Shown here: one piece after another, positions 10,454-15,178 of the stretch
Layout of the letters: every line of letters begins with the position of its first letter
How positions within the stretch are numbered: the first letter of the stretch is position 1
Source: Acidobacteriota bacterium
GTDB lineage: Bacteria > Acidobacteriota > Terriglobia > Bryobacterales > Bryobacteraceae
Direction of reading: 5' to 3'
DNA length: 64,000 bases
NCBI GenBank assembly: GCA_017304135.1
Contig: JAFLBB010000019.1
Location: forward strand, 1 to 64,000
The notes under the pieces: model-generated
Seen by the model: only the letters and a program-made list of their open reading frames with translations
Told to the model about the DNA's origin: nothing
The model's database searches: none
Made by a program: the position numbers and the translations under genes

Positions 10454-11872
10454 ATGGACAAGGGTTGCGGACGGAACACGACGCGGCGGGATGTTTTGCG
10501 CACGGCGGCGCATGGTTTCGGAGCGATTGCTCTTGAATCGCTGCTGGCGCGGGAGGGCTTCGCGGCAACGAAGGGGAATCCGCTGGCGGCCAAGCCGGCG
10601 CATCTGCCGTCGAAGGTAAAGTCGGTGATCTTCCTGTTCATGGTGGGAGCGCCGAGCCAGATTGACACGTTTGACCCGAAGCCGGAGCTGCAGAAGTTTC
10701 AGGGGCAGCGGCTGCCGGAGAGCTTTGGGAAGATTGTGAGCCAGTTCACCGACGGTTCGACGCCGATTCTGGCCTCGCCGTGGGAGTTCAAACAACACGG
10801 GCAGAGCGGGGCGTGGGTGAGCACGCTGATGCCGCACCTGGCCAAGCGCGTGGACGACATCTGCTTCGTGCGGAACTTCTTTACGGAAAGCGTCGTGCAT
10901 GCTCCGGCGATGTACCAGGTGATGTCGGGGCGCATCCTGATGGGCTATCCGAGCGTGGGTTCGTGGGTGACGTACGGGCTGGGTTCATTGAGTGAGAACC
11001 TGCCGGCGTATGTGGTGATGCCGCAACCGGAGGGGACGCCGGAGGGCGGGACGCCGATGTGGGGTTCGGGCTTCTTGCCGGCGGTGTATCAGGGGAATTT
11101 GTTCCGTCCGGGGGCGAATCCGATTCTGCATTTGAAGTCGCCCGAGGGCGTGACGGTGGAGCGGCAGCGGCGGACACTCGATCTGCTGCAGAAGATGAAC
11201 GAGCACGACGCACCGCAAGAGGACGAGGAGATGGCGGCGCGGATTGCGAGCTATGAGCTGGCGTTCCGCATGCAGGCCCATGCACCGGAGGCGGTGGATC
11301 TGACCAAGGAGAGCCCGGCGACGCGGAAGATGTATGGACTGGAGGACAAGCGGACGGCGGAGTTTGGCACGCGCTGTTTGCTGGCGCGGCGGTTGGTGGA
11401 GCGCGGTGTGCGGTTCGTGCAGTTGTATTCGGGCGGCGGCCCGGTGAGCATTCAGTGGGATGCGCACAGCCACATTGTGGAGAACCACGAGAAGATGTGC
11501 GGGCTGACGGACCAGCCGATTGCGGCGCTGCTCGAGGATTTGAAGTCGCGCGGGTTGCTCGATTCGACGCTGGTGATTTGGGGGAGCGAGTTCGGGCGGC
11601 TGCCGATGTCGCAGAGCGGGAACGGGCGCGACCACAATCCGCACGGGTTCACGATGTGGTTCGCGGGCGGCGGCGTGAAGGGCGGGCAGACGATCGGGGC
11701 AACCGATGAGTTCGGGCTGCGGGCGATCGACGGCTATCACATGCGCGATTTCCACGCGACCATCTTGCAGGCCTGCGGACTGGAGCAGAACCGGCTGTGG
11801 TATCTGCACAACGGGCGGCAGGAGAAGCTCACCGATTTTGGCGGCAAAGTGATCCAACAGGTGTTCGGGTAA
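10454..11872 (+). CDS. DUF1501 domain-containing exported protein
   Basis: A protein of 472 residues with a twin-arginine signal ([15 protein letters not shown]). The fold is alkaline-phosphatase/sulfatase-like. Visible family hallmarks are [18 protein letters not shown] near the N-terminus, [18 protein letters not shown] and WDAHSHI in the middle, and [12 protein letters not shown] with GRDHNPHGF near the C-terminus, which supply likely metal ligands. It directly follows the DUF1549/DUF1553 gene, the standard pairing. The two products are probably exported by different routes (Sec and Tat) and work together outside the cytoplasm; this is inference. The following gene starts 6 bases after its stop. 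Confidence 0.92.
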
Positions 11873-11878
11873 ACGGCG

Positions 11879-12571
11879 ATGCTGGCGCTGCTGCTGCTGG
11901 CTTCGACGACGTTGACGGGGGAGATGTGGGAGCGGGCGCGCCCCGTGCATGAGAAGACGCTGGAGCATCCGTTCTTGCAGGGGCTCACCGACGGGAGCCT
12001 GCCGAGAGACAAATTTCAGTTCTATTTGGAGCAGGACGCGGAGTATCTGCGGGTGTTCGGGCAGGCTCTGAGCGTGCTGGCGTCGAAGGCGCCGCGCGAG
12101 GAGTGGGCGCGGACGCTGAACCGGCATGCGGTGGATGCAATCGAGGTGGAGCGCGCGTTACATGAAACCATCCTGGGGAAGTTCGGCGTCCAACGGAGTG
12201 GCGCGGTGCGCGCCGTGATGGCTCCGACGAACGCGGCCTACACGAATCACCTGCTGGTGACGGTGGAGCGCGGGACGTTTGCCGAGGGCCTGGCGGCGAT
12301 GCTGCCGTGTTACTGGATTTATTGGGAAGTGGGCAAGGTGTTGGAGAAACGGGGCTCGAAGAACCGCGAGTACCAGCAGTGGATCGATCAGTATGCGAGC
12401 GCGGAGTATGGCAAGACGGTGCGTGAGGTGCTGGCGATGATGGACGCGATGGCGGGCGAGATGACGGCGGCGCAGCGGGAGCGTTGCGTGGCGTTGTTTA
12501 CGCTGGGGGCGCGGTATGAGTGGATGTTCTGGGACATGGCGTGGAGGAAGGAAGAGTGGCCGCCGCGATGA
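11879..12571 (+). CDS. TenA/thiaminase II family protein with an N-terminal hydrophobic leader
   Basis: A protein of 230 residues with the complete TenA fold. Catalytic positions known in TenA are present: Asp53 (LEQDAEYL), Cys144 (MLPCYWIYWEV) and a C-terminal Glu in RYEWMFWDMAW. TenA enzymes hydrolyse aminopyrimidines or thiamin for thiamin salvage and are normally cytoplasmic, starting near the EHPF motif. Here the first 14 residues (MLALLLLASTTLTG) are a hydrophobic leader, which suggests export, although an alternative ATG at 11923 would remove it. No thiamin gene or TPP riboswitch is nearby; the neighbours are exported proteins. The stop overlaps the next start (ATGA). Confidence 0.85.
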   Translation: MLALLLLASTTLTGEMWERARPVHEKTLEHPFLQGLTDGSLPRDKFQFYLEQDAEYLRVFGQALSVLASKAPREEWARTLNRHAVDAIEVERALHETILGKFGVQRSGAVRAVMAPTNAAYTNHLLVTVERGTFAEGLAAMLPCYWIYWEVGKVLEKRGSKNREYQQWIDQYASAEYGKTVREVLAMMDAMAGEMTAAQRERCVALFTLGARYEWMFWDMAWRKEEWPPR

Positions 12572-13581
12572 AGTGGATGAGCGGGTTGGCGCTGGCGACG
12601 GCGATGGGCTTGGCGCTGTTGGCCCAGGAGCCGGAGGCGGAGGGTCCGCCGAAGCTGAAGCGGGGGGTGCCGAAGCAGGGGGCGGGTGAGCAGAGCACGA
12701 CGGCGCGGCCGGAGATGACGCCGTCGACGGGGCCGGCGGTGTACAAGGAAATCGTGACCGACGCCGAGGGGCGGGTGGTGGAGGAGAAAGCGGGAGCGGC
12801 GGGTCCGAAATTGGACCCGGTGATTGAGAAGGCGCGCCAGGTGGCGTTTGACTGGGTGGATTCGCTGCCGAACTTCTTCTGCCAGCAGATCACCTACCGC
12901 TTCCAGAGCGACACGAAGCCGGCGGACTTCAAGATGAAGGACCGGGTGACGGCGGAGCTGGCGCATGAGGGAGCGAAGGACGAGTTCCGGAATTTGGAGA
13001 TCAACGGGAAGAAGTTGAAGAAGGGCTCGCCCGAGGAGTCGGGCACGTGGAGCGTGGGCGAGTTTGGTTCGATGGCGGCGGATGTGTTGAATCCGGCGTC
13101 GGGGACGAAGTTTGAGAAGCGGGGTTCGGAGACGGTGGGGTCGCGGATGGCGAAGTGGTACGACTACACGGTGGAGCAGGCGAATTCGCATTGGAAGGTG
13201 ACGTTCGAGGGGCAGACGATCTATCCGGCATACAAGGGCTCGATTTGGATTGACGAGGAGACGCACCGGGTGTTGCGGCTGGAGATGCAGGGGCGGCTGT
13301 TGCCGGCGGACTATCCGATGGACAAGGTAGAGATGATGGTGGAGTACGGGAAGGTGAAGATCGGGCAGCGGGAGCATTTGATGCCGGTGAAGAGCGGGAG
13401 CCTGGGGTGCAAGCGGGGGACGCTGATTTGCGTGAACAACCAGACGGAGTATCGGAACTACCGGCAGTTTGCGAGCGAATCGACGATCATGACGACGGAG
13501 TCGACGGTGACGTTTGAGGGGACGGAGGAGGAGGGGAAGAAGGCGGGGGAGGAGGAGAAGAAGGGGAAGGGGAAGAAGTAG
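12568..13581 (+). CDS. Secreted hypothetical protein
   Basis: A protein of 337 residues. I choose ATG 12568 because it overlaps the TenA stop as ATGA and starts a signal peptide (MKWMSGLALATAMGLALLA); a longer in-frame start at 12520 is unlikely. After a low-complexity proline/lysine segment, residues from about 85 form a beta-rich domain beginning VAFDWVDSLPNFFCQQITYR. Such a LPNF-C-Q phrase is common in acidobacterial secreted proteins of unknown function. Two cysteines near SLGCKRGTLICVNN may pair. The end is a Glu/Lys/Gly-rich tail. It is the last gene of the run and faces hicA tail to tail, 8 bases away. Confidence 0.7.
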   Translation: MKWMSGLALATAMGLALLAQEPEAEGPPKLKRGVPKQGAGEQSTTARPEMTPSTGPAVYKEIVTDAEGRVVEEKAGAAGPKLDPVIEKARQVAFDWVDSLPNFFCQQITYRFQSDTKPADFKMKDRVTAELAHEGAKDEFRNLEINGKKLKKGSPEESGTWSVGEFGSMAADVLNPASGTKFEKRGSETVGSRMAKWYDYTVEQANSHWKVTFEGQTIYPAYKGSIWIDEETHRVLRLEMQGRLLPADYPMDKVEMMVEYGKVKIGQREHLMPVKSGSLGCKRGTLICVNNQTEYRNYRQFASESTIMTTESTVTFEGTEEEGKKAGEEEKKGKGKK

Positions 13582-13589
13582 GGGGGCGG

Positions 13590-13811
13590 TTAGAGAGGAC
13601 GGATCAGGGATTCGACCGTGAGTCCTGATTCGTGCAGGATTTGGCGCAGGGTCCCCGGGCGAAGCGAAGGGTGGTCGGGGATCGAGACACGCGCGGGCGG
13701 GTGATTGCGCTTCAGAAACATGTGGCTGCCGCGCTGGCGGAGGAACTCGAAGCCGGCGCGTTCGAGTGCCCGGCGGAGGTCGCGACCCGACAGGCCTCTG
13801 GGCAGTTTCAC
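13590..13811 (-). CDS. hicA: HicA-family mRNA interferase toxin
   Basis: A protein of 73 residues with the double-stranded-RNA-binding-like HicA fold: SGRDLRRALERAGFEFLRQ, then the catalytic histidine in RGSHMFLKR, and the PDHPSLRPGTLRQIL tail. Length is typical. The toxin cleaves mRNA and is neutralised by HicB. Its start overlaps the end of hicB by 4 bases, so expression is coupled. The order hicB then hicA is the reverse of the commonest arrangement but is known. Confidence 0.92.
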   Translation of the reverse strand: MKLPRGLSGRDLRRALERAGFEFLRQRGSHMFLKRNHPPARVSIPDHPSLRPGTLRQILHESGLTVESLIRPL

Positions 13812-14032
13812 TGGTACGGGCCGGCTTGGACCTCGACGAGTTCGCGCTGGTCCTCAACTGGTAGAGGCTCCCCGTTGGCGAGCATGTCTTCGATGAATAG
13901 ATCCATGGCTTCGCGGATGTTGGTGAGAGCCTCTTCGCGAGAATCGCCCTGGGAGACACATCCGGGCAGCATGGGCACAGTGGCGACGAAACCGCCGTCG
14001 GACTCGCGTTCCAGCATGACGGTGTACTTCAT
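13808..14032 (-). CDS. hicB: HicB-family antitoxin (short form)
   Basis: A protein of 74 residues with the partial RNase H-like HicB fold: MKYTVMLERESDGGFVATVP, then LPGCVSQGDSREEALTNIREAM. It ends after about one domain and lacks the C-terminal helix-turn-helix or ribbon-helix-helix DNA-binding domain of longer HicB proteins. Autoregulation of the operon may therefore differ or be absent (inference). It lies upstream of hicA with a 4-base overlap. Confidence 0.92.
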   Translation of the reverse strand: MKYTVMLERESDGGFVATVPMLPGCVSQGDSREEALTNIREAMDLFIEDMLANGEPLPVEDQRELVEVQAGPYQ

Positions 14033-14060
14033 GTGGGCAGGGTAGCACGGACGGGAGGAG

Positions 14061-14600
14061 TCAGGATTCGGATTGGTCCCGGATAGATTTCACGAAATCT
14101 ACGGCGCGCCTGCTCAGGACGAAATCGCTGGCGATCGGACCTAGGTCATTGTTGTTGCTCGGCTGATCGAGCCTTCGAAGCAGGCCAAGGCTTGACAGCT
14201 TGTCGCATACACTGTCAACGTCGGCAACCCCGAGTGAGCGCCACCTCCCGGCCAGCCACGCAGTCCTTGCCTGGTGTACGGACTGGGTGTGGGTTCCTGA
14301 AATAGCCCGTCCTTGAACGCGGACCGCCTCGCGCAACACCGTGACATCCGCATCATCGAGCAAGGTGGCGATTCGCATCATCTCCTCGACATGGTCAGCA
14401 GTGGGTGAGGGGAAAGCGAGAACGGCCCCAGAAAGTATCTCCGCAATTCGCTTTACGCGGGACCGCGATCGTGTCTGCCTCGCCTTCCGGTCCCCTTCAA
14501 CCAGGAGTTCGAGCCATTCCGTCCGGAGGAATGCCTGGTGTTCCTCGCTCTTGAGGTAATCTCGGTGTTCCTCGCTCAGTTTTGAGACCATTTTTCTCAA
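14061..14600 (-). CDS. Hypothetical protein, 3' part of a gene split by an amber codon
   Basis: The frame runs from TTG 14600; ATG 14591 is the more likely start if it is translated alone (about 176 residues). I do not recognise the family. The first 60 residues are one long charged helix (KLSEEHRDYLKSEEHQAFL) and the rest looks like two winged-helix-type helical segments (RIATLLDDADVTVLREAV; SVCDKLSSLGLLRRL). The start lacks a good Shine-Dalgarno. The frame continues directly from the upstream 85-codon ORF, separated only by one TAG, so the two probably form one original protein of about 265 residues. Base composition is less GC-rich than the surroundings, as in a transferred accessory gene. 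Confidence 0.6.
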   Translation of the reverse strand: MRKMVSKLSEEHRDYLKSEEHQAFLRTEWLELLVEGDRKARQTRSRSRVKRIAEILSGAVLAFPSPTADHVEEMMRIATLLDDADVTVLREAVRVQGRAISGTHTQSVHQARTAWLAGRWRSLGVADVDSVCDKLSSLGLLRRLDQPSNNNDLGPIASDFVLSRRAVDFVKSIRDQSES

Positions 14601-14858
14601 CTATCGAAGCTCGGAGATGACGACATTGACTAAGATCTCCGAGTTTTCCAATGCCCTTTGGTCGGTGGCTTGCCGGATACCTTCCGCGATAGACACAACC
14701 GCTGGAAACGGATTTCCGGTCACCACAGAGGTTACTAAGTCTACAATCGCCTTTATGAAAGGGGAGGCCGCAATCAACCCGGATAGCCCAGGATCTTTTT
14801 GACGAGCCTCGTGCTCTCGAATAGTCAACTCTTGGTCTAATGGGTCATCAATAGCCAT
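14601..14858 (-). CDS. Hypothetical protein, 5' part of the amber-split gene
   Basis: An 85-residue frame from ATG 14858 to TAG 14601-14603. It begins with an acidic segment (MAIDDPLDQELTIREHEA), then a hydrophobic helix (PFIKAIVDLVTSVVTGNPFP), then a helix ending NVVISELR that would run on smoothly into the next ORF. No known family is recognised. The position between a toxin-antitoxin pair and another antitoxin-like gene suggests a stress or defence role, but that is only context. It could be a nonsense-mutated gene, a stop-readthrough gene or a true two-gene operon. Confidence 0.55.
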   Translation of the reverse strand: MAIDDPLDQELTIREHEARQKDPGLSGLIAASPFIKAIVDLVTSVVTGNPFPAVVSIAEGIRQATDQRALENSEILVNVVISELR

Positions 14859-14869
14859 GCTGGTCTCAG

Positions 14870-15061
14870 TTAGCCAGGCAACCTGCCGATTAGGCCAAGT
14901 TCAGCCTTGACCTTGGCGAGGGGAATTCGCTTTTCTTTGCGGCGGGAGCGGGAGACGAGGATGTCCTGGATGTCTCCCCAGAGGGCGGCATGCTTTTTGA
15001 GGTCGATGACGGCGGCGGTTTTGCGGCCTTTTTCGTCGGTGATGTACTGGATGCCGGTCAT
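14870..15061 (-). CDS. Small antitoxin-like protein, no toxin partner seen
   Basis: A protein of 63 residues from ATG 15061. The sequence MTGIQYITDEKGRKTAAVID followed by LKKHAALWGDIQDILVSRSR has the pattern of short Phd/RelB-like antitoxins that begin with an extended strand and continue as helices (...RRKEKRIPLAKVKAEL). Antitoxins of this type normally precede a RelE/ParE toxin; downstream here are instead the unrelated split ORFs, starting 11 bases later. A longer frame extending to 15433 is an artefact running antisense to the CorA-like gene. Confidence 0.65.
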   Translation of the reverse strand: MTGIQYITDEKGRKTAAVIDLKKHAALWGDIQDILVSRSRRKEKRIPLAKVKAELGLIGRLPG

Positions 15062-15178
15062 GGTGGGAGGACGCCTTCTGAACCTGCACTCAGAATACCG
15101 CAGGGCTGGCGTGGGGCCGCCGTGGGGCCAAACTCGCGCTGCCGTTCTCCCTCGCCATGCCCTACACTGGTTAACCGG

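Follow-up and report, generated by a model that had tools for sequence, protein, structure and literature searches.

A lone in-frame TAG in an accessory gene of a soil acidobacterium, and a protein family with a distant profile match to Abi-alpha

In E. faecalis, the Abi-alpha protein of prophage 6 brings about the premature lysis of phage-infected cells (PMC6356687). Genes that carry an in-frame stop codon have been described on a wider scale, and a survey found that such stops occur commonly among bacterial genes, do not last long, and are over-represented in genes of the mobilome (PMC7918605). It has also been argued that many in-frame stops do not mark pseudogenes, and purifying selection has been reported on bacterial genes that contain them (PMC7918605). 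A literature search found no publication linking pseudogenes with defence islands. The gene described here comes from a soil acidobacterium whose genome is a draft assembly of 353 contigs. It resembles the in-frame-stop genes of the survey in having a single stop, an otherwise intact frame, an accessory character, and intact relatives, and differs from them in that its stop is found in one genome only (PMC7918605).

The gene is encoded on the minus strand of the window, the 64,000-nucleotide stretch of DNA that was analysed, and runs from an ATG at 14858-14856 to a TGA at 14063-14061. Translation of the minus strand gives 85 codons, a TAG at 14603-14601 (codon 86), 179 codons, and the TGA, all in a single frame. 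The first-pass annotation had described this layout of two ORFs separated by a lone TAG, and its coordinates and both lengths were right. The stop is set within GAG CTT CGA TAG TTG AGA AAA ATG GTC, and the remaining 264 codons contain no further stop and no frameshift. The N-terminal fragment of 85 aa (14604..14858) carries a MAIDDP start motif, hydrophobic/amphipathic helices, and the first part of a long helix, while the C-terminal part (14061..14600; 179 codons and the TGA) comprises a conserved helical core and a predicted MarR-like winged-helix domain. Just past the TAG, on the same strand, is an in-frame 27-bp tandem duplication, LSEEHRDYLKSEEHQAFL (14526..14579), which amounts to a 9-residue insertion relative to the intact relative L009; its two copies are identical at 20/27 positions with an exact run of 14 nt, a likeness reached by 0/1000 shuffles. 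Since about a third of neighbouring gene pairs will be in the same frame by chance alone, the frame relation by itself is weak proof of a former single gene, and it is the homologues that decide.

Sequence and profile searches of Acidobacteriota genomes recovered 20 full-length relatives, whose ORFs measure 239-272 aa in the chosen reading and slightly more when the start is left open (L089, L090, L091, L094). Weak matches (L023, L093, L117-L121) and contig-end fragments (L019, L092) were left out of this count, and L004, a 721-aa ORF judged by its sequence to be polynucleotide phosphorylase-like, was discarded as a false match. In 20/20 full-length relatives a single uninterrupted ORF crosses the TAG column, and the stop is present only in the window copy. 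Two independent adjacent genes sharing a frame by chance are thereby excluded, since each full-length relative is one ORF. Full-length homologues were what the first-pass annotation had proposed to look for, and encoding by two separate genes, which it had named as counter-evidence, was seen in none of them.

The relatives are diverse, with 17-41% identity to the intact member L005, and the nearest to the window copy is 38% identical, too distant for dN/dS after the stop. In a core alignment of 17 distinct relatives and the window copy, no gaps occur next to the TAG, and all intact relatives have a sense codon at its position; SELR-stop-LRKM in the window copy aligns with EELR-R-IRAK in L009 and DELR-R-HEDR in L010. 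Both halves of the window copy are collinear with the family profile when compared by hhalign, the N-terminal half matching residues 1-76 (E 2.4e-6) and the C-terminal half matching with an E of 5e-32. In leave-one-out scoring, the N-terminal half reached 30.7 bits, within the 14.9-85.6 of the intact members, and the C-terminal half 163 bits, which is mid-range among intact members (89-207). Maximum-likelihood phylogeny placed the window copy within the family as sister to seven intact members, with moderate support (90/91), and because it is nested among intact members the stop is parsimoniously placed on one terminal branch. The unbroken relatives, the collinearity of both halves with the profile, and the position of the window copy inside the family tree strongly support an ancestral gene that encoded one protein of about 265 residues, as had been proposed from the window alone.

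The predicted fold was examined in a model of L005, built with a family alignment in which the window protein was included and its TAG translated as Q. The model (mean pLDDT 80, pTM 0.72) consists of long helices followed by a C-terminal winged helix. In this model the TAG column falls at residue 78, where a long helix (residues 44-78) ends; the part N-terminal to the stop is hydrophobic, and the conserved core with its predicted MarR-like winged helix lies C-terminal to it. A Foldseek search against the PDB and viral models gave no match at E 0.001 or better. Model residues ~120-260 superpose on the MarR/MepR-type regulators MepR/MarR (78-87 residues, rmsd 2.6-3.6) with a Z of up to 8.7, near the level that the tool calls common for (unrelated) small domains, and there is a weak sequence match to 2d1h (E 0.0015). 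This likeness is restricted to the C-terminal domain, and no MarR counterpart was shown for the N-terminal half of the family.

The location of the stop bears on the possibility of a functional fission, in which the N-terminal part would end at the TAG and the core with its winged helix (~175 aa) would be produced by termination-reinitiation at ATG 14591, yielding two subunits. An in-frame ATG is indeed found four codons past the stop (14589..14591, minus strand), and the conservation of the family is kept in the C-terminal half. Moreover, the Shine-Dalgarno site at 14591 is no worse than that at the gene's own start, as the anti-SD energy is -2.7 kcal/mol before ATG 14591 and likewise before the true start at 14858. 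Both sites are weaker than the mean of random positions (-4.9), and Shine-Dalgarno energy neither clearly favours nor rules out either start. The first-pass annotation was thus correct that the downstream part has no good ribosome site, but this does not discriminate, since the gene's own start is equally weak. However, no split relatives were found, the stop coincides with the end of a long helix in the model and not with a long flexible linker, and the conservation of the C-terminal half is equally explained by a young dead gene. A fission into two subunits is therefore considered unlikely, and its more specific form, in which an Abi-alpha-like protein was split at the end of a helix into two co-translated subunits with the winged-helix part made separately by reinitiation, would be quite unlikely.

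Searches of Pfam, NCBIfam, PADLOC, and PHROGs with the family yielded no significant assignment, and scattered single-member matches (Thy1, Protoglobin, Cas12d, InvH) were taken as chance. Relatives were likewise absent from viral, phage, and plasmid collections. When 19 intact members were compared by hhalign with ten acidobacterial Abi-alpha proteins (PF14337/DUF4393), a collinear profile match was obtained over 146 columns covering the helical core and the C-terminal domain (score 36.5, P 1.9e-4, probability 47%); 40 column shuffles scored no higher than 16.3 and the reversed control 13.7. The proteins are also similar in length, Ef2833 of E. faecalis V583 prophage 6 having 272 aa (PMC6356687), and both models run in the same order from long N-terminal helices through a helical core to a C-terminal winged helix, with overlapping lists of winged-helix matches. 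In contrast, the aligned stretch has only 14% identity, the alignment leaves out the N-terminal third, and the MxIDDP start is the family's own. Pfam's curated cut-off for PF14337 (29 bits) was reached by no family member, the best being one of the 17 scanned (E 0.058). The family is therefore not described here as an Abi-alpha, though it may work like one. A defence role for the family is plausible but unproven, given the distant Abi-alpha match. In genome G007, an Abi-alpha (PF14337) gene at L107 carries an in-frame TAA inside the match and represents another interrupted defence-like gene.

In the window, the split gene is part of a same-direction cluster on the minus strand (13590-15061), in the order orf63, split gene, hicB, hicA. 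The hicB-like antitoxin gene (13808..14032; PF15919, E 7.8e-13) begins 28 bp downstream of the split gene and overlaps by 4 bp the hicA toxin gene (13590..13811; PF07927, E 1.8e-17), while orf63 (14870..15061), a 63-aa ORF that is antitoxin-like by eye only, lies 11 bp upstream. A toxin-antitoxin-rich island had been suggested for this region; the hicB-hicA pair is confirmed by Pfam, but "rich" exceeds the data, as the other candidate is the antitoxin-like ORF without a Pfam match. No neighbour is common to the neighbourhoods of the relatives, and hicA, hicB, and orf63 are near none of them. A role as a toxin-antitoxin component is not supported, as the relatives' neighbourhoods show no conserved pairing with a partner gene. 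Several relatives do have genes of defence or toxin-antitoxin type nearby by Pfam, namely SIR2_2 with HerA (L080), RES (L072), FRG (L077), DUF433 (L079), and a CopG/BrnA antitoxin (L069), which is suggestive only, these neighbours having been picked by eye without a background rate. At L080:5647-10331, the relative L021 is directly upstream of the SIR2_2-domain gene, which is followed by the HerA/DUF87 gene, an arrangement resembling SIR2-HerA defence systems.

The family is patchily distributed, being found in 13/237 genomes of its taxonomic family. The GC3 of the two halves of the split gene is 0.53 and 0.66, as compared with 0.84-0.89 in the four longer flanking genes. Two congeners are syntenic with the window from 15155 rightwards, and neither has anything like 11800-15155 at that place. 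Together, the patchy distribution, the low GC3, and the absence of the stretch from the congeners fit mobile or dispensable accessory DNA that was probably acquired horizontally. The window copy is the only one in the draft assembly, where no second, intact copy was found.

Another possibility is that the TAG is decoded at some rate, so that a little full-length protein is made. Such readthrough would agree with the intact frame beyond the stop and with the purifying selection reported for in-frame stops in bacteria (PMC7918605). However, the stop is common to no relative, close relatives for a selection test are lacking, and no tRNA with a CUA anticodon is present among the 44 tRNA matches decoded with ARAGORN, although a draft assembly could miss one. 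Readthrough is thus very unlikely, and recoding by a suppressor tRNA or code reassignment was rejected, as no CUA tRNA was found in the assembly. The same genome has a tRNA-Sec (anticodon TCA) at L025:1361-1455, and UGA may accordingly be selenocysteine in some of its genes, which is irrelevant to TAG. Two weak tRNA matches, L066:159-228 (Glu-CTC, 40.7 bits) and L067:147-219 (Pro-GGG, 29.6 bits), are possible tRNA pseudogenes or remnants.

The gene might instead be intact in the organism and the TAG an error of sequencing or assembly, as the codon is known from the draft assembly alone and every relative is intact. Against this, the change is not a homopolymer indel, and the site lies 14 kb inside the end of an 80.5-kb contig; an error is thus very improbable. 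The locus is best explained, with good likelihood, by a recent nonsense mutation in an accessory gene that is present in one copy and was probably acquired horizontally, that is, by ordinary gene decay. Of the three fates that the first-pass annotation had offered, nonsense mutation fits best, while readthrough and a split into subunits are less likely, with positive evidence for neither. The lack of a second stop or frameshift and the mid-range score of the C-terminal half suggest little decay so far, and either the lesion is young or some product is still made. A well-conserved C-terminal half is equally expected from a working product, whether by readthrough or by reinitiation, and this speaks against a broken gene.

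If the nonsense lesion is accepted, the ancestral product would have been a protein of ~265 aa in which amphipathic helices at the N-terminus were followed by a long helix, a helical core, and finally a winged-helix domain. The nonsense change would cut the N-terminal helices off from the core and winged helix, and the full-length product would be gone or reduced to background readthrough. Reinitiation at the ATG four codons beyond the TAG may still yield a C-terminal fragment of ~175 aa. Three elements of this account are inferences: the loss of function through the stop, the recent date of the lesion, and a role of the intact protein in phage defence similar to that of Abi-alpha. The stop could also lower hicB-hicA expression through polarity, if the split gene and hicB-hicA are on one transcript.

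The lesion itself would be ordinary accessory-gene decay in a draft genome, and the uncatalogued family that it exposed is the more useful result. This family consists of at least 20 intact acidobacterial proteins, solitary and patchily distributed, which Pfam, NCBIfam, and PADLOC leave unassigned and whose profile distantly matches that of Abi-alpha, a phage-exclusion protein. If the link to Abi-alpha is true, it would extend a little-known abortive-infection superfamily in the Acidobacteriota.
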